From NCBI GenBank assembly GCA_023248955.1, contig JAHFDP010000003.1, forward strand, positions 68,304-103,961: a stretch of DNA of 35,658 bases, in the 5' to 3' direction. Shown piece after piece: positions 9,539-34,142 of the stretch. Source of the stretch: Deltaproteobacteria bacterium. GTDB taxonomy: Bacteria; Myxococcota; Myxococcia; Myxococcales; JAHFDP01. Every line of letters begins with the position of its first letter. Position 1 is the stretch's first letter. The position numbers and the translations under genes were made by a program. Below the pieces are notes generated by a model. It saw only the letters and a list, made by a program, of their open reading frames with translations, ran no database searches and was not told the DNA's origin.

Positions 9539-9940
9539 CTACCAGCGAACAGGTGGCGTCCCGTAGAGCCGAACATGAGAGAGGTCACTTCGCTCGGACA
9601 CCGAAAAATCGCGCAAGGAAGTCAGTCGATCACTTACCACGTGATCTCTACTCGTGGCCGCATCAACCAATCCATAAACGGCTCCGCTCAAAATTCCGAT
9701 GCCGGTCGAAAACGACAATGTGCGTCCCCAGTTATATCCAGAGCCGGTGTTGAAGCCGCCGTTCTGGACGAGGACGATGCCGCTGCCGATGAGCGCGCCG
9801 GCCACGCCACCGTAGAGCGCGTCGGTGGCGACGTACGAAAGGGTGGTCCGGCCGCTCGTCGTCTCCACGCGTTCGGTCGCGTGGGATGCGGAGGGAAGCA
9901 CGATCAGCGCGAGCAGAATCGCAAAAGGGATGCGTTGCAT
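9539..9940 (-). CDS. Secreted protein with glycine-rich membrane segments
   Basis: A 133-residue protein. From the ATG at 9940 it starts with a clear signal peptide (MQRIPFAILLALIVLPSASHA). A GGAG lies a few bases upstream, so I prefer this over the longer open frame. The mature part has two glycine-rich hydrophobic segments, ALYGGVAGALIGSGIVLV and STGIGILSGAVYGLV, resembling glycine-zipper outer-membrane proteins. No family is recognised. It stands alone on the minus strand, with its stop directly against the metallophosphoesterase stop. Confidence 0.6.
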   Translation of the reverse strand: MQRIPFAILLALIVLPSASHATERVETTSGRTTLSYVATDALYGGVAGALIGSGIVLVQNGGFNTGSGYNWGRTLSFSTGIGILSGAVYGLVDAATSRDHVVSDRLTSLRDFSVSERSDLSHVRLYGTPPVRW

Positions 9941-10039
9941 GCTTCCGTCTCCGTAGTCGGTGGAAAGAGGAACGCTTGTTTCCCTGAAAAAGCTGGGGAC
10001 GGGTCCCTTCGTAGACAACCTTGAGCGAGCACCTGGCCG

Positions 10040-10962
10040 CTACGGTGCTGACGGATCGGGCGTGCCGGCATCGAACGCGGGCACCTCTTCACGTTCGGCG
10101 CACGTACCCACACACTGCGCGTCGCCGTGGCAGCTCGGAACGATGGTGCGGCGAAGCGTGGCCCGCGAAGCTCCGTCGTCAACGCTCACGTCTAACCAGA
10201 GCAGGCGATCGAGCAGCGCATGGCCGTGCGGCGGGCAGGCGGGAACGTTGGCGAAATCGGTTTGGCCCACCAGGTCTGGCTCCGCCCAACCCGCGTTGCG
10301 TTGCGAAAGCCGAACGGTGCGATCTTCCTGCGCGATCAGCAGGCCGCCATCGGGGTCGCGAATCGTCGCGCGCAAATCGACGTGGCAAGGTGCGACGTTG
10401 CGGACACGCACACCCACGAAAAAAACGTCGCCACCTTGGCCTGGTCGAAAAAGATCAAGTTGGCCGCCGTCGGTAATTTCATCGAGCGCGGACTCGCGTT
10501 CACGAAGTGGACCTGAAGCATCAGCAGCTCGTGCGGCGCGAAGTGCTGCGCCACGCCATCGGGGAGCGTCCAATCGGTCACGTTACGGCCCGGTGAGCTG
10601 TCTTGCTGGTTGGTGACCAGTGGCCAGTCGGCCCAGTTGGGGCTCTTGAAGCACTCGCCATTGACCACCACGTCGCCCGGTTTTCCCGAAAGGCCGACGA
10701 GGGTGCGCACGCGAAAAAGGTTCATGTGATGGCTGCCCGGATTCACGGCGGTCACGATGCGGTTCACCCAGGTTTCATCGGCGGGCGCTTCAAAAAAAAT
10801 GCAGCGCTGATCTTCGGTTCCCGCGGCCACGTCGTAGGCCGGGGTGGCGAGTTGAAATCCCCGCCCGACCGGCGGCGGATCGAGCTGGACGTCGGCGGGC
10901 AAAGGATGCGGCGGCTTCGGACAGGCCGCAAGGAGGAGCGCACACGCGAGTCGAATCTTCAT
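10040..10962 (-). pseudogene. Frameshifted copper-monooxygenase-like lipoprotein
   Basis: Two minus-strand reading frames together make one protein of about 308 residues. The upstream frame starts at ATG 10962 with a lipoprotein signal (MKIRLACALLLAAC) and runs through PGSHHMNLFRV and LMLQVHFVNAS. These match the HHM and H-x-(N) copper sites of type II ascorbate-dependent monooxygenase-like proteins. The downstream frame continues with VFFVGVRVRNVAPCHVDLR and LWLDVSVDDG to the stop at 10040. The frames meet around 10429-10450, where a run of seven A (10429-10435; T on the coding strand) makes a one-base slip likely. The lesion could be a true mutation, slippage-based control, or a sequencing error. 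The upstream frame alone ends near residue 207, lacking its C-terminal third. Confidence 0.6.
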
Positions 10963-10985
10963 GAACACTTAGTATACTTCGCCCC

Positions 10986-11780
10986 ATGCGCCCACTGACA
11001 ATCGCCACCTGGAACGTCAATTCCGTCCGTGCCCGCGAAGCGCGGCTCACCGCTTGGTTGCGCGAGCGGCAACCCGACGTGGTCTGCCTGCAGGAACTGA
11101 AATGTGAGGAGGCCACATTTCCATGGGATCCCATACGTTTCGCGGGTTACGAAGCCTGCATCGCTGGCCAGAAGACCTACAACGGCGTGGCCATCCTGGC
11201 GCGCGCGGAGCTTTCACTGACCGATGTTCAGCGCGGCCTCGACGATGGCGAGCCCGATCCGCACGCGCGGCTCATCGCGGCGACCGTCGGCGGCGTGCGG
11301 GTGGTCAGCGTCTATGCGCCAAATGGTCAGTCGGTAGGCTCCGACAAGTGGAACTACAAGCTGGCTTGGTACGATCGGTTGCGTGGTTTTCTAGAAACGC
11401 GTTGTCGCGCGGGCGAACCGCTGGCGCTGTGCGGCGATTTCAACGTGGCTCCCGAAGCGCGCGACGTGCACGACCCCGCGCGTTGGGAGGCGGAGACGCT
11501 CTACCATCCTCGGGCGCGCCAGGCGCTCGCCGACGTGACGAGCTGGGGGCTCACCGACACCTTCCGTCAGCACGTGGACGACGGCGGCTTTTACTCGTGG
11601 TGGGACTACCGCGCGGGATCGTTTCACAAGAACATGGGCCTGCGCATCGATCACATCTTCGCCACCGCGCCCCTGGCCCAGCGCTGCCTGGCCGCGTCGA
11701 TCGATCGCGAAGCACGCAAGGGAAAAGATCCCAGCGACCATACGCCGGTCGTTGCGTCCTTCGAATATCTTGATGCGTGA
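10986..11780 (+). CDS. xth: Exodeoxyribonuclease III
   Basis: A 264-residue member of the exonuclease-endonuclease-phosphatase superfamily with full exonuclease III landmarks: IATWNVNSVRAR (Asn10), CLQELKC (Glu37), SVYAPNGQ, LCGDFNVAP, GLRIDHIFAT and SDHTPVVA, which carries the catalytic His. It acts in base-excision repair as the apurinic/apyrimidinic endonuclease and 3' repair exonuclease, in the cytoplasm. The length matches the family. It is divergent from the copper-monooxygenase-like gene, with 23 bases between starts, so their promoters overlap. It converges with the PDZ lipoprotein gene, their stops being two bases apart. Confidence 0.95.
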   Translation: MRPLTIATWNVNSVRAREARLTAWLRERQPDVVCLQELKCEEATFPWDPIRFAGYEACIAGQKTYNGVAILARAELSLTDVQRGLDDGEPDPHARLIAATVGGVRVVSVYAPNGQSVGSDKWNYKLAWYDRLRGFLETRCRAGEPLALCGDFNVAPEARDVHDPARWEAETLYHPRARQALADVTSWGLTDTFRQHVDDGGFYSWWDYRAGSFHKNMGLRIDHIFATAPLAQRCLAASIDREARKGKDPSDHTPVVASFEYLDA

Positions 11781-19034: not shown

Positions 19035-19477
19035 TGGCCAAACGAATTGCGACGAACGGGAAAGCGAGCCGCGCGAAAGCGCCGTTGATTCTGGTGGTGG
19101 AAGATTTTCAAGACGCGCGCGAAATGTACGCCGAGTATTTGGAATTTTCGGGCTACCGCGTGGAGCAGGCGCGCGATGGCGAAGAAGCGCTCAAGAAGGC
19201 CAATCGTTTGCAGCCGAGCATCATTTTGATGGATTTGTCGTTGCCGAAAATCGATGGCTGGGAAGCGACGCGGCGGCTCAAGCGGGACGAGGCCACGCGG
19301 CAAATTCCAGTGGTGGCGCTGACTGGACACGCGCTGATTGGCCACTCCGAAGGTGCGCGCGAGGCGGGTTGCGATGCGTTCGTGGCCAAGCCGTGTCTGC
19401 CCGACGCGCTGGTGGCTGAAGTGCGGCGGGTGTTGGAGCTGATGGCGAAACCGAAGACGAAGCGGGCGAAGGCGTGA
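19031..19477 (+). CDS. Single-domain response regulator
   Basis: A 148-residue receiver-only protein, the likely partner of the upstream kinase. After a basic leader (MAKRIATNGKASRAKA) the receiver shows VVEDFQDARE (acidic pocket), LMDLSLPKIDGWE with phospho-Asp68, VVALTGHA (Thr switch) and DAFVAKPCLPDAL (conserved Lys). There is no output domain, so it probably acts by protein-protein contact, as CheY-like proteins do, or in a phosphorelay. Two ATGs, 19031 and 19034, both sit in the kinase stop region. Its own stop overlaps a possible GTG start at 19474, but gvpF more likely starts at 19507. Confidence 0.88.
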   Translation: MMAKRIATNGKASRAKAPLILVVEDFQDAREMYAEYLEFSGYRVEQARDGEEALKKANRLQPSIILMDLSLPKIDGWEATRRLKRDEATRQIPVVALTGHALIGHSEGAREAGCDAFVAKPCLPDALVAEVRRVLELMAKPKTKRAKA

Positions 19478-19506
19478 AAAAATTTGGGGGCAATTCAGGA
19501 GAAGGC

Positions 19507-20409
<903 letters not shown>

Positions 20410-20414
20410 TCCGC

Positions 20415-20711
20415 GTGATCGTCCTCGACAAGATGCTCATCGGGAGCATCAAGTTCGTCCTGGGCAAAGTAGTCGCTGCCGCCCAGGCCGAACTGGACGA
20501 CGATTCGCATCTGCGCGAGGAGCTCTTGGCCACGCAGATGCGATTCGAGCTCGGGGAGATCACGCAGGAAGAGTTTGGCGAGATCGAAACGCAGCTCCTG
20601 GCGCGGTTGCGGGAGATTCGCGAACGGCGCGAAGGACTAGGCGGGCCGAAGGTCGGAGACGAAGGTGTGAAGGTCGTCGGTGTCGACGCGAGCGTCGGCG
20701 GCGATGAGTAG
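20415..20711 (+). CDS. gvpG: Gas vesicle protein GvpG
   Basis: A 98-residue helical protein. Start GTG 20415 gives VIVLDKMLIGSIKFVLGKVV, then AAQAELDDDSHLREELLATQ and FELGEITQEEFGEIETQLLARL. This is the GvpG pattern (hydrophobic N-terminal helix, then LE-x-GEI-x-EEF-E-x-LL). GvpG is an accessory protein that works with GvpF and GvpL in early gas-vesicle assembly. It comes five bases after the gvpF stop. An acidic-glycine tail follows (GDEGVKVVGVDASVGGDE). The REP-like element begins five bases after its stop. Confidence 0.82.
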   Translation: MIVLDKMLIGSIKFVLGKVVAAAQAELDDDSHLREELLATQMRFELGEITQEEFGEIETQLLARLREIRERREGLGGPKVGDEGVKVVGVDASVGGDE

Positions 20712-20715
20712 CGTT

Positions 20716-20800
20716 CGTCATGGCCGGGCCTCGACCCGGCCATCCACGTGGATGCTCCGATCAATGGCCGTGGATGCCCGGGTCAAGCCCGGGCATGACG
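20716..20800. repeat. REP/BIME-like composite palindrome inside the gvp operon
   Basis: Two hairpins, 20720-20728/20735-20743 (ATGGCCGGG arms) and 20774-20782/20788-20796 (ATGCCCGGG arms), lie in the gap between gvpG and the ArsA-like gene. A perfect 14-bp palindrome, CATCCACGTGGATG, sits at 20741-20754. The outer halves (20716-20748 and 20769-20800) are themselves imperfect inverted copies. This is the arrangement of a REP-doublet (BIME). Similar CCCGGGCATGAC/GTGGATGCCCGGG elements are familiar from proteobacterial genomes. It could stabilise or separate the upstream and downstream halves of the operon transcript. Confidence 0.7.
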
Positions 20801-20804
20801 GATA

Positions 20805-22763
20805 GTGGTGGTGGTGAATTCGCTTTTCCATTTTTTCGGCGGGAAGGGTGGCGTCGGAAAAACGACGTGCGCCGCCGCCGCTGCGATTGCCTCCGCTGAA
20901 GCTGGTTCGCGAACGCTCATCGTCTCCACGGATCCCGCCCATTCGCTCGGCGACGCGCTGACAAAAAAGCTCTCCGCAAAACCGCAACGAATCACCGTGC
21001 ACCGCGGTGAGCTCTTTGCGACGGAGCTCGATGCGACCAGCGCGCTCAAACGTTGGCTCACGCCGCGGCGAAAAACGCTGCGCACCATTGCCGAGCGCGG
21101 CACGGTGCTCGATGACGAGGACATCGATCGGTTGCTGCAACTTTCGCTGCCGGGCGTCGATGAGCTGATTGGCCTTTTGGAGTTGGTGCGGCTGGCGCGC
21201 GCGGGCGATTACGAAACGATCGTGGTGGACACCGCGCCGACTGGGCACACGCTGCGGTTTTTGGAAATGCCGGAGACGCTGCACCGGATCGCGGTGGTGC
21301 TCGACGAAATGCAGGAGCGGCACCGGTTTGTGCGCGAAAGTCTCGGGGGCGCGCCGCGCGCGGATGCGGCGGACGCGCTCATCGACGAGTTGGAGAGCGA
21401 TGCGCAGGAGCTGGCTGCGATTCTGCGCAATCGCACACGGACGACGGTGACGTGGGTTCTGTTGCCGGAAGCGCTCGCCGTGGCCGAGTCGCAAGATGCG
21501 CTGGCGGCGCTGCAACGCGACAGCATCGCGGTGAACGAAGTGATCGTGAATCGCGTGACCGCGAGACCGCGAACCCCGTGCGCGCTCTGCGATGGACGGC
21601 GTTCTGCGGAGCGCGTGGCGATCGGCGACGCCGTGAAAACGCTGACGGTTGCACAGCGAGCACTGCGGCAAATCGAGTCGATGGAAGCGGAGCCGCGCGG
21701 TGTTGCTGCGCTGCGAAGGGTGGCGACCAAGATCCGCGATGTGGAAGTCACGGCATCGCGAACCAAGACGAACGGTCGAACGAAGGCCGCGCGAACGAAA
21801 ACAATTCCGCTGCTTGGGGCGGGGCTCGAGATCCCGTCCTCGGTGCAGCTTCTTTTTTTGGGTGGAAAGGGCGGCGTTGGCAAAACGACCTGCGCCGCGG
21901 CAACCGCGTTGGCACAGGCTGAGCACGATCCGCAGCGAAAGATTCTTCTGCTCTCCACGGACCCCGCGCATTCGCTCGGCGATGCGCTCGGAATTCCACT
22001 CGGTGACGACGAGCGAAACGTTCCCGGCGTAGCGAATCTTTTTGCACGCGAGCTCGACGCGGCGCGTGCCTTCGACGCGCGTCGCGAACGCTACCGCGAC
22101 GCCATCGATGGGTTTTTCGATCGCCTCCGAGGCGAATCGCGCTTCGACGCTTCGCACGACCGCAACGTGATGCAGGATCTTTTCGATCTGGCGCCACCGG
22201 GACTCGACGAGCTCTTTGCCGTCGTTTCGGTTTGTGACGCGCTCGTCCCGGCGGTCGGCAAAACCGCGCCGGGCGCATTCGATCGCGTGATCATCGACAC
22301 CGCGCCAACAGGCCACGCGCTGCGTCTCCTCGAGATGCCGGAGCTCGCGCTGACGTGGTCGCGCACGCTGTTGTCGCTGCTCCTCAAGTACCGAGGTGCG
22401 ATGCCGCTGGGCGATCTGGCGCGCGAGCTCACCGACCTGACGCGCGGACTGCGCGAGGTCGGCGTGCTGCTTCGCGATAGCGCGCGGACGCAGTTTGTGC
22501 CGGTGATGCGCGCGGCGGAACTTCCGCGCGTGGAAACCGAACGCCTGCTTCGTGCGCTCAAGAAGCTGCACATCCCGGTACCGTTGGTCATCGTGAACGC
22601 GCTAACGCCGCCCGGTTGCGCGCGCTGCGATCGGCTGGCCGTCCTCGAGGAGAAACTGCTCACGCGGTTTCCGGCTACACTCATCCGTGCGCCGGCGATC
22701 GTGCCACCCCCCATTGGGCTTGCCGTGTTGCGGAACTGGGAAATGACTTGGAAAACGGACTGA
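20805..22763 (+). CDS. Tandem ArsA/Get3-type ATPase in the gas-vesicle cluster
   Basis: A 652-residue protein made of two full ArsA/Get3-family ATPase halves. Each half has the deviant Walker A GGKGGVGKTTCAAA (about residues 12-25 and 353-366), switch I TDPAHSLGDAL, and the conserved DTAPTGH-LR-LEMP block. Each half also keeps a CxxC pair, TPCALCDG and PGCARCDR, like the zinc pair of the Get3 dimer. The repeats are joined by a basic linker (about 315-345). Arsenite pumps and tail-anchored-protein targeting are the known roles of the family. No arsenic genes are near, so a chaperone or targeting role for hydrophobic Gvp proteins is suggested by context. The start is one of several adjacent GTG codons from 20805. 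Confidence 0.88.
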   Translation: MVVVNSLFHFFGGKGGVGKTTCAAAAAIASAEAGSRTLIVSTDPAHSLGDALTKKLSAKPQRITVHRGELFATELDATSALKRWLTPRRKTLRTIAERGTVLDDEDIDRLLQLSLPGVDELIGLLELVRLARAGDYETIVVDTAPTGHTLRFLEMPETLHRIAVVLDEMQERHRFVRESLGGAPRADAADALIDELESDAQELAAILRNRTRTTVTWVLLPEALAVAESQDALAALQRDSIAVNEVIVNRVTARPRTPCALCDGRRSAERVAIGDAVKTLTVAQRALRQIESMEAEPRGVAALRRVATKIRDVEVTASRTKTNGRTKAARTKTIPLLGAGLEIPSSVQLLFLGGKGGVGKTTCAAATALAQAEHDPQRKILLLSTDPAHSLGDALGIPLGDDERNVPGVANLFARELDAARAFDARRERYRDAIDGFFDRLRGESRFDASHDRNVMQDLFDLAPPGLDELFAVVSVCDALVPAVGKTAPGAFDRVIIDTAPTGHALRLLEMPELALTWSRTLLSLLLKYRGAMPLGDLARELTDLTRGLREVGVLLRDSARTQFVPVMRAAELPRVETERLLRALKKLHIPVPLVIVNALTPPGCARCDRLAVLEEKLLTRFPATLIRAPAIVPPPIGLAVLRNWEMTWKTD

Positions 22764-23533
22764 ACAAAAACGCAACTTATGTTTACTGCCTGGTGCGCTC
22801 GGAAAAGGCGCCGTCGCTCGCACGTGTGCCTTCGGGATTGGCGCGTGCGGCAAAGCTGCGTGGACTCGATGCCGGAGGCGGACGCTGGCTCATCGTGGCC
22901 GACGTACCGCTCGCGCACTACGGCGAAGCCGCGCTGGCGTTGGGTTTGCGCGATCTCGATTGGGTTTCGGCTTGCGCGTTGGCGCACGAAGCCGTGATTG
23001 AAAACTTCCTTTTCGCGGATGCGTTATTGCCGATGAAGCTCTTCACACTTTTTGGCAACGACGATCGGGCGTTGGCACATGTGCGTCGTTCGCGTGCGCG
23101 GATTGATCGATTGCTATCACGCGTGGCGGGCCGCGAAGAGTGGGGCCTGCGTGTGGTTCTAGATGAAGTGAAAGCGCGGAGCCTGGCCGCGGCGAAGCGA
23201 ACGCCCGCGGGACCGGCCACCGGCGCGGCTTTTCTCTTGCGCAAAAAACGTGATCAGGATTTCGCGCGCGAAGCGCTCGCCGGGGCACGCGCGCAGGCGG
23301 ATCGACTTTTCGTGCAGTTGAAACGGAGCGCGGTTCAGGCCCAACGCCGAACACCGACGGCAGAGCAGGGTGGTCGGCTGGTGTTGCACGCCGCCTTTCT
23401 GGTGGAGAACAAAGACGGCGCTAAATTTTCGGCGCACGCGCGTGCCGGGCTCTCGGCGCTCACGGAACGCGGCTGCGACGCCGCTCTGAGCGGGCCGTGG
23501 CCCGCTTATCATTTTGTCGGATCGGCGCGATGA
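22748..23533 (+). CDS. gvpL: Gas vesicle protein GvpL (second GvpF/L)
   Basis: The second GvpF/L homologue, about 261 residues. The domain starts KNATYVYCLVRSEKAPS and ends ALSGPWPAYHFVGSA, the family signature. Middle elements also fit: VIENFLFADALLPMKLFTLF (compare the VMRKHTVIPMSFGTVF block of the first copy) and EEWGLRVVLDEVKA. No ATG lies in a suitable place; the TTG at 22748, with GGAACTGGG upstream, is the best start, overlapping the 3' end of the ATPase gene. Position after the inserted ATPase and before gvpS matches GvpL of the Bacillus order. It ends with an ATGA overlap into gvpS. Confidence 0.85.
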   Translation: MENGLNKNATYVYCLVRSEKAPSLARVPSGLARAAKLRGLDAGGGRWLIVADVPLAHYGEAALALGLRDLDWVSACALAHEAVIENFLFADALLPMKLFTLFGNDDRALAHVRRSRARIDRLLSRVAGREEWGLRVVLDEVKARSLAAAKRTPAGPATGAAFLLRKKRDQDFAREALAGARAQADRLFVQLKRSAVQAQRRTPTAEQGGRLVLHAAFLVENKDGAKFSAHARAGLSALTERGCDAALSGPWPAYHFVGSAR

Positions 23534-23769
23534 GCATCGTGAAAAACGAGGCTGCGGAGATCGTCGAGACAGCGGAAGCGTCATTGCTCGAGATCATCGA
23601 TCACGTCCTCAACAAAGGCGTGGTGATCACCGGCGAAGTGATGCTGGGCGTGGCTGGCGTCGATCTCGTCTACCTGCGCATTTCGGCGATTCTCTGCGCC
23701 GCCGACCGTGTCGATCCGTGGAATCGGGCCGAGGGCCAGCATCGCCTCACCACGCGCAAGAAGGGCTAG
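23530..23769 (+). CDS. gvpS: Gas vesicle protein GvpS (GvpA-superfamily)
   Basis: A 79-residue minor GvpA-family protein. The core ASLLEIIDHVLNKGVVITGE with VMLGVAGVDLVYLRISAIL resembles the Bacillus GvpS form (VAGVDLVYL), not structural GvpA or GvpJ. It starts at ATG 23530, overlapping the gvpL stop (ATGA), and is followed after five bases by the third F/L gene. It is a non-structural assembly factor, probably acting in nucleation. Confidence 0.82.
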   Translation: MSIVKNEAAEIVETAEASLLEIIDHVLNKGVVITGEVMLGVAGVDLVYLRISAILCAADRVDPWNRAEGQHRLTTRKKG

Positions 23770-23774
23770 CCGCG

Positions 23775-24425
23775 ATGATTTCGCTCTACGCATTGACGGA
23801 CGCGCGCGTTGCACTGCCTCCTGGACTGCGCGCGGTAGCGTGCGAGTCCTTCCTCGCGATCGTCGCCGACGTCGAGCAGGTTCCAGTGATCACCGAAACC
23901 GCGCTGCGCAATCACGATGCCAATGTTCGCGCACTGTCGGCGATTTCCGAGGCGATTCTTCCGGCGCGTTTTGGATCGGTCGTGGCGGACGAACCGGAGC
24001 TCGTCGACGCGCTCGAAGCGCGGACCGCGACGCTTGTGGACGCGTTGCGGCTCGTGAAGGGAATGGATCAGATGACGTTGCGTGTTTTCGGACCGTCCGT
24101 CTCCGAACCGCTCACCAATCCAGCGGCCGCCGATCGTTCTGGAACGGACTACATGCTTGAACGGCAGCGTGCGTTGCAAACGGAGACCGAGGTGGACGAG
24201 ATCGCGCAGCTGCGCGCGTTGCTCGCGCCACTGATCCACGGGGAGCGAACCGAGCGCCATGCCGCGCCGCCACTGATCGGGAGCGTGTATCACCTTGTCA
24301 TACGCGGACAATCCAAAGCATACGGAACAGTTGTGCGTGAAGCTGCGAGTCAGTTGGCGCCCATCCGCGTCGCAGTTAGCGGACCGTGGCCGCCTTACGC
24401 GTTCGCGCCGGAGGCGATTCGATGA
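23775..24425 (+). CDS. Third GvpF/L homologue, shortened
   Basis: A 216-residue GvpF/L-family protein, the shortest of the three. It starts directly at the domain (MISLYALTDARVALPPGLRA) with no N-terminal extension. Family blocks include SEAILPARFGSVVADEPEL and KGMDQMTLRVF, ending in VAVSGPWPPYAFAPE. It sits between gvpS and gvpK, where the classical order has no F/L gene. It may be a specialised partner that recognises a different GvpA-like subunit, such as GvpS or GvpJ; this is inferred. ATG 23775 is preceded by a short GGCTAGCCGCG; its stop overlaps the gvpK start. Confidence 0.85.
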   Translation: MISLYALTDARVALPPGLRAVACESFLAIVADVEQVPVITETALRNHDANVRALSAISEAILPARFGSVVADEPELVDALEARTATLVDALRLVKGMDQMTLRVFGPSVSEPLTNPAAADRSGTDYMLERQRALQTETEVDEIAQLRALLAPLIHGERTERHAAPPLIGSVYHLVIRGQSKAYGTVVREAASQLAPIRVAVSGPWPPYAFAPEAIR

Positions 24426-32737: not shown

Positions 32738-32813
32738 TCCTTGGTAGCTCAGTTGGCAGAGCAGCGGACTGTTAATCCGCGGGTCGCAGGTTCGAGTCCT
32801 GCCCAAGGAGCCA
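32738..32813 (+). tRNA. tRNA-Asn (GTT anticodon)
   Basis: A complete 76-base cloverleaf with encoded CCA. The acceptor arm TCCTTGG pairs with CCAAGGA (32803-32809), with discriminator G. The D arm is GCTC...GAGC. The anticodon stem GCGGA/TCCGC encloses loop CTGTTAA with anticodon GTT at 32771-32773. The T arm is GCAGG-TTCGAGT-CCTGC. The gene is also the attachment site of the integrative element: the integrase gene on the opposite strand ends inside it. Confidence 0.96.
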
Positions 32814-33948
32814 TCCCTCCCGAGAATTCAGACACTTGCGAGGTGGCGGTCTGTCCGCCGCGTCCACCGAATCCGCGGTTTTCCACTGCGTTTGACACAC
32901 CGGTGTCACAGTCTTTTGCCGCCATCGCGCCCAGCGCTGCGCGAATGCGGGACCGCAGATCCGCGAGTGGCAGCCGAGCGTAAACGCGCTCCAACATGCG
33001 GCTGTCCTTGTGGCCCATCACCGGAGCGATGAGGTCCAACGGGACGCCAGCCATGCGCATCCAGGTCGCGTGCGTGCGACGCAGGTCATTCGGAGAGCAG
33101 CGGTCGATGCTGGCTTTCGTGCAGCCGAGGCGCAAGTCGCGGTTCACTTTGCCCCAAGGCGAAAACAGATTGCCGTCCATGCCTTCGGCGTACTTGAGCG
33201 CGTAATCGAGCAACTCGCGCTGAAACTCGGCGGCGACGGGCACGCTGCGCAAGCGCGTCGCGCGCTTGGTGCCACGGATGAACACGGAGGACTTGTCGGG
33301 AGCTACGTCCTCACGGCGGGCACGTTCGGTTTCGCCCCAGCATGCGGAGGTCGCGACGATGAAGGCGACGCGAGCGGCGTGGTCGGGCGTGAGCTTGGCG
33401 AGCAGTTTTTGGAGTTCTTCTGGTGCGAGCCAACGTTCACGCGGCTTGTACTCGGGGGCGAAACCGATAGGGAGCACGGCTGCCGGGTCGGCCATCCAGA
33501 GCCCGCGGCGCCGTGCGAGTTTCAACGCCGTCCGGAGCGTAACCAACTCCTTTGCGATGGTCGTTTCGTGGGCTCCCTCCGCGCGCCGCGTCGAAATGAA
33601 CGCGTCAACAACCCGCGCGCCCGCAGGCGGTAGGAGTTTTGCGAGGGGTGTCGTGCCGCCGAGTACCCGGATGAGGTGACCGGCTTTTTGTCGATAGAAG
33701 CGCACCGTTTCAGCGCTGCCACGGCCGGAGCGCGCGCGTTCATCGCGCTCGGCAACCATCATGGCAAGCGCGGCTTCGACAGTGGTCGCGTTCGCGGCTG
33801 CGTGATCGGGATCAGCGGCGTCACGTTCCCACTGGCGGACGAGAGCTTCAGCGGCCTTCTTGTCGTGGCAGTTCGTGGATCGGCGGACACGATCGCCGTT
33901 TTCGTAGTAGGTGCCCCACCAGACCTCGCCGCGTTTGTAGAGTCGCAT
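32749..33948 (-). CDS. Tyrosine-recombinase integrase with altered active-site residues
   Basis: A phage-type integrase of 399 residues from ATG 33948 (MRLYKRGEVWWGTYYENGDR). It has an N-terminal arm-binding region, a SAM-like core-binding domain (about 60-150) and a C-terminal catalytic domain. The TSACWGETERARREDV segment lines up with the family's TGLRxxE block, putting Cys204 where the first catalytic Arg is expected. SPNDLRRTHATW has Asn for the usual first His but keeps the Arg. MGHKDS and the tyrosine in LERVYARL are present. The C-terminus APWAGLEPATRGLTV RCSAN and its stop are encoded by the antisense strand of the tRNA, typical for tRNA-targeting integrases. It is intact in frame; activity is uncertain. 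Confidence 0.85.
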   Translation of the reverse strand: MRLYKRGEVWWGTYYENGDRVRRSTNCHDKKAAEALVRQWERDAADPDHAAANATTVEAALAMMVAERDERARSGRGSAETVRFYRQKAGHLIRVLGGTTPLAKLLPPAGARVVDAFISTRRAEGAHETTIAKELVTLRTALKLARRRGLWMADPAAVLPIGFAPEYKPRERWLAPEELQKLLAKLTPDHAARVAFIVATSACWGETERARREDVAPDKSSVFIRGTKRATRLRSVPVAAEFQRELLDYALKYAEGMDGNLFSPWGKVNRDLRLGCTKASIDRCSPNDLRRTHATWMRMAGVPLDLIAPVMGHKDSRMLERVYARLPLADLRSRIRAALGAMAAKDCDTGVSNAVENRGFGGRGGQTATSQVSEFSGGMAPWAGLEPATRGLTVRCSAN

Positions 33949-34142
33949 CCGAACGTCTCCTCTGCGTATCGTTCCCAAACGTGAGCTTGAACCCTGAGCA
34001 GGCCCCGTCCGTCAATCCGTCCCGCGGCGCGACGCAGGTGCTCGTAGGCAATCGAACGGCTGCACGCGAGGGCGCGCATGACGTCCTTCGCGTTCACCCA
34101 GATCGTGAGCGGGACGACGCGATCAGCTGTGAGGGAATCCAT
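33759..34142 (-). CDS. Excisionase-like helix-turn-helix protein
   Basis: A 127-residue ORF upstream of and overlapping the integrase by about 190 bases. The N-terminal 65 residues look like a small DNA-binding protein: PLTIWVNAKDVMRALACSRS (helix-turn-helix) then IAYEHLRRAAG and LLRVQAHVWERYAEETF. That suits an excisionase or recombination directionality factor encoded next to an integrase. The C-terminal part runs through the integrase N-terminus in another frame and looks unstructured, so the functional part is probably the first half. An inverted repeat at 34171-34196 lies just upstream of its start. Confidence 0.55.
   Translation of the reverse strand: MDSLTADRVVPLTIWVNAKDVMRALACSRSIAYEHLRRAAGRIDGRGLLRVQAHVWERYAEETFGCDSTNAARSGGAPTTKTAIVSADPRTATTRRPLKLSSASGNVTPLIPITQPRTRPLSKPRLP

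Follow-up and report, generated by a model that had tools for sequence, protein, structure and literature searches.

Two overlapping frames beside an A7 run probably mark a deletion remnant of two neighbouring genes in a Myxococcales genome

Does a lipoprotein frame that breaks beside a homopolymer reflect one gene with a slipped base, or the remains of something larger? The question is raised by a locus within a 35,658-nucleotide stretch of Deltaproteobacteria bacterium DNA (hereafter, the window), in which a 210-aa and a 177-aa open reading frame (ORF) on the minus strand overlap by about 240 nt (Table 1). A sequence-only reading had proposed that the two frames jointly cover one copper-monooxygenase-like lipoprotein, that they meet near a run of seven A residues, and that a one-base change would restore a full ORF. 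The A7 run, which that reading placed ten bases away (at 10429–10435), does sit within the overlap of both ORFs. This is weak evidence, because A7 words are commoner than chance in the window (14 matches on both strands, versus a mean of 5.15 in dinucleotide shuffles).

Table 1. Coordinates of the overlapping frames and of the features assigned to them (positions in the window).
Feature	Position	Strand	Description
Upstream ORF	10968->10336	-	210 aa; signal/lipobox-like start
Downstream ORF	10573->10040	-	177 aa
A7 run	10419-10425	+	T7 in gene sense; ordinary codons inside the gene B homology
A'	10492..10968	-	First ~159 residues of gene A (A profile, alignment, order search)
Junction zone	10485..10498	-	A homology gives way to B homology, which lies in a different frame
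Out-of-frame tail of A' ORF	10336..10491	-	51 codons + stop, overlapping B read in another frame
'B	10040..10498	-	Gene B without about its first 41 profile positions; stop codon 10040-10042

Both frames were compared by tblastn with 25 loci of named Myxococcota/Deltaproteobacteria genomes, and with loci of the same order. For the upstream frame the match is to the N-terminal half of one gene (gene A); for the downstream frame it is to a separate gene further along (gene B). The frames thus do not jointly cover one lipoprotein; each matches a different gene, and the two genes are neighbours in relatives. A profile built from 26 A homologues matches the upstream frame at 189 bits (residues 8–175, confident to about residue 161), bearing out the copper-monooxygenase-like lipoprotein identity for the upstream part. 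A B profile from 11 homologues matches the downstream frame at 110 bits, the match beginning at the codon at 10498. The A' part carries a lipoprotein-like start together with the motifs GSHHMN and HFVN, which by analogy with peptidylglycine alpha-hydroxylating monooxygenase (PHM) may supply first-domain copper ligands. The 'B part corresponds to positions 42–183 of the B4 profile, and lacks the start and signal/lipobox of gene B.

The position at which one homology gives way to the other was examined closely. Homology changes over at about 10492–10498, ~70 nt before the A7 in the direction of the genes, and B homology crosses the A7 without a gap; indeed, the A7 codons form part of a hydrophobic V-F-F stretch that is usual in B. 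Inclusion of the segment between junction and A7 raises the B score from 80.0 to 111.9 bits (a gain of ~31 bits), a value reached by none of 1000 shuffles of this pre-A7 segment (best shuffle 90.3). With a B profile of 16 homologues from which the window row had been removed, the scores are 107.9 versus 77.3 bits (best shuffle 87.8). Extension of the A segment past residue 159, on the other hand, moves its score from 186.7 to 189.2, an outcome equalled by 253 of 1000 shuffles. Codon usage was also tried as a locator of the switch and was set aside: the scan gives 95.99 at 10430–10432, 95.54 at 10421–10426 and 95.45 at 10496–10498, so that it cannot separate 10430 from 10497 and slightly favours the A7 side. 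Two further values count against an early changeover, namely local codon scores that mildly favour the upstream (A) frame from ~10460 to 10410, and a low GC3 (0.48) in the first 25 'B codons. Homology is much stronger than codon usage, and we take it to set the position of the changeover. On this basis the A7 is placed inside gene B, away from the frame break; the frames do not meet there, as the earlier reading had it, even though the run lies within their overlap.

The arrangement of the two genes in relatives was then counted by profile, across 31 non-redundant loci with gene A outside the window's genome (the paralogues L004 and L006 and a contig-end fragment, L003, were left out). The A-B pair is not universal among these loci: in 23, B comes after A and shares its strand; in one (L008), the two genes are on opposite strands; and in the fetched flank of the remaining seven (L013, L019, L020, L022, L024, L025 and L026) no B was found. 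Gene A is 326–375 aa long in Myxococcota relatives (L002, L005 and L012, with ends uncertain or cut, were not counted), and gene B 197–244 aa as aligned. Homologues in the form of two separate proteins, of the lengths of the two frames, had been named as counter-evidence to the single-gene proposal; two proteins are what the relatives contain, both of them longer than the frames. A homologue with a short A fused directly to B in one frame was not seen among the 31 loci, and none of four proteins flanking the locus in the window was found in the fetched homologous loci (extent about 1.5–3 kb). In the window the locus is bordered by an exonuclease-III-like gene (10986–11780) and by a gene at 9539–10018. 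One of the excluded paralogues, L006 (G000:C19:81586-82215), belongs to the window's own genome; it is distantly related to gene A, its open frame spans 313 aa, and the flank fetched for it showed no B.

A survey of 145 genomes of the order, with no other member of the window's own family among them, yielded eight that match A (E<=1e-10) and nine that match B (E<=1e-5). Five carry a full-length A with B directly after it. In another (G047), A is divided between two contigs and B comes after its second piece; G019 shows a weak A-like match only, and G099 and G144 have B without an A match. Overlapping A and B matches occur in the window's own genome alone among the 145. In four genomes of the order, a read-through B match contains a single stop codon; if frames are taken from stop to stop, the match in these four begins at profile position 15–20. 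A class-level search (147 genomes) covered essentially the same order again. The A copy at L005 (G047:C292, from a 61%-complete draft) leaves its frame before an EHCN motif, and is hence also broken or misassembled.

How much sequence separates the two genes in relatives was measured between two landmarks: the Asn codon of the H(F/Y)VN motif of A, and the PxQGG motif of B. The distance is 56 nt in the window versus 586–898 nt in relatives (18 of 27 loci show both patterns), or 671–898 nt once L005, itself a broken copy, is removed. Therefore, about 0.5–0.85 kb is absent. The absent part comprises (i) the second domain of A, including its GHFH and EHCN motifs, and (ii) about 41 profile positions of B; in homologues, GHFH lies ~200 nt beyond the point at which A homology stops in the window (residue ~159). 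When the missing half of A from two homologues was used to query the window's own genome, the search returned the remnant, a weak paralogue on contig C19 and chance-level matches only. The locus occurs once in that genome.

What the intact genes encode was approached through predicted structures. The model of an intact A (L011; pLDDT 89.0) aligns with PHM chain 6ala_C at Z 22.6 (rmsd 3.2 over 266 residues); PHM chains match it at Z 17–22.6, with the next unrelated family at 9.2, and Foldseek matches it to 4zel_A at E 6.8e-13. Intact A is thus predicted to adopt a two-domain PHM fold, and this modelled fold makes it resemble PHM and dopamine beta-hydroxylase. The likeness extends to the motifs GSHHM, H(Y/F)VN and GHFH, which are ordered like the PHM copper ligands and which we take to correspond to them (ligand numbers being partly from PDB titles). 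Gene A differs from PHM and dopamine beta-hydroxylase in that it encodes a bacterial lipoprotein, shares 15–18% identity with them, and is followed by gene B. Intact A is accordingly predicted to be a copper type II ascorbate-dependent monooxygenase-like (PHM-like) lipoprotein and putative enzyme. The window copy has the first domain only: its final A residue pairs with residue 173 of L011, which lies between strands 162–171 and 183–189. The first domain is thus retained in the remnant and the second lost, consistent with the absence of GHFH. Family libraries returned little. Pfam Cu2_monoox_C stayed below its gathering score in the two A homologues tested (18.6 and 21.7 versus 23 bits), Pfam gave no family above cut-off for either window frame, and NCBIfam returned a single sub-threshold match and otherwise nothing for A, B or the window frames; a sequence search of the PDB found no match for A at E<=1 and chance-level matches for B. 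Gene B is predicted to form a beta-sandwich (pLDDT 87.5). Its fold gave weak matches only (the best to RhoGDI, E 5.9e-4, TM about 0.4), and no function was drawn from them.

How, then, might the overlap have arisen? One reading is a lone lipoprotein gene, broken by a one-base homopolymer error or switched by replication slippage or phase variation at the A7; it would agree with the run lying in the overlap and with codon usage, which alone permits a switch there. The downstream frame is, however, a different gene, with homology that starts before the A7 and crosses it ungapped, and a substantial stretch of the relatives' sequence is missing; we consider a single gene extremely improbable. These same observations speak against both the sequencing error and the slippage switch that had been suggested, and a one-base change that closed the frame would create an A/B chimera instead of restoring a gene. 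Programmed frameshifting or transcriptional slippage, producing an A'-'B fusion protein, could in principle use the sense-strand T7 as a slippery run, and seven nt was the minimum poly-A/T length adopted in a screen for prokaryotic frameshifts (PMC3711429). The same proposal must accommodate about 24 wrong-frame residues that a slip at T7 would put at the junction, and an arrangement that recurs in no homologue (31 loci; 145 genomes of the order), with A intact in homologues. A study of many genomes finds selection against A/T runs evident at about nine nt (PMC1088944), which counts further against slippage. The probability of such a mechanism here is negligible.

Alternatively, the organism may possess intact A and B, with the assembler having joined across them or picked up a minority variant. 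The genome was assembled in 116 contigs at 95.57% completeness, both A' and 'B look coding, and a broken A occurs in another draft genome (G047/L005), all of which would suit an artefact. Conversely, the junction lies well inside a contig (at about C11:78795), the junction locus is present once, and the missing half of A is on no other contig at the sensitivity used. Neither does any long direct repeat able to mislead an assembler span the locus, the only pair being one of 14 nt and 86% identity that is unrelated to the junction. We therefore hold an assembly artefact to be unlikely. The junction was also searched for direct repeats, and none of use emerged. An inverted repeat of 22 nt (10478–10499 / 10944–10965), complementary at 73% and perfect over a 9-nt core, connects the junction with the start of gene A, probably by chance.

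The explanation that we favour, and regard as likely, is that an internal deletion joined A' to 'B out of frame and left a dead two-gene remnant. The ancestral state would have been that of relatives: a gene for a secreted, PHM-like two-domain lipoprotein (A), followed on the same strand by one for a small, secreted beta-sandwich protein (B). A deletion of the size estimated above would have taken the second half of A, the intergenic gap and the start of B, fusing the parts within the changeover interval. Translation from the start of A would now yield a 210-aa lipoprotein with the first copper half-site and 51 meaningless residues at its end, while B would be deprived of its own start and export signal. 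With A truncated and B so deprived, the locus is most likely a recent, non-functional remnant.

Each part is homologous to a different gene, an interval is missing between them, and the frame changes in the junction zone; from this we infer a genuine deletion in the organism, its recent date and the loss of function. The locus resembles an internal-deletion pseudogene of two adjacent genes in that both are truncated at one junction, out of frame, with the interval between them missing and a second copy absent; the counterparts in relatives are intact and adjacent. No specific difference from such a pseudogene was seen in the locus as known here from the assembly. As the sequence-only reading had noted, both parts keep protein-like sequence: they are otherwise stop-free and of coding-like composition and show no long decay, a point against the remnant reading. 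Its suggestion of a recent break is likewise supported, with recency itself deduced. The 'B part lacks one Cys of a CxCxC motif and a C-terminal GxxC motif, both common in homologues, and this loss of conserved cysteines fits relaxed constraint.

Elsewhere in the window, positions 19474–24425 hold three GvpL/GvpF gas-vesicle genes (PF06386), between which lies a gene for a double ArsA-family ATPase. A tRNA-Asn gene (32738–32813, plus strand) shares sequence with the 3' end of an ORF for a phage-type integrase (32749–33978, minus strand), and this overlap is likely the attachment site of a mobile element.

A broader and rather doubtful reading is that the conserved, intact A-B pair forms a so far unreported copper monooxygenase module of Myxococcota made of two secreted proteins, in which B would be a Cys-rich beta-sandwich partner of the PHM-like lipoprotein; this genome would be losing the module, and A' might persist on its own as a lipoprotein that binds copper through its first domain. 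A literature search on the A-B pair returned nothing on bacteria of this group. What the window holds here is most likely an ordinary deletion remnant of two genes and no genetic switch. The locus illustrates that a frame break beside a homopolymer can pass for slippage, and that homologues alone reveal a deletion joining two genes. A further outcome is a conserved A-B pair without a name in the family libraries searched (Pfam, NCBIfam).
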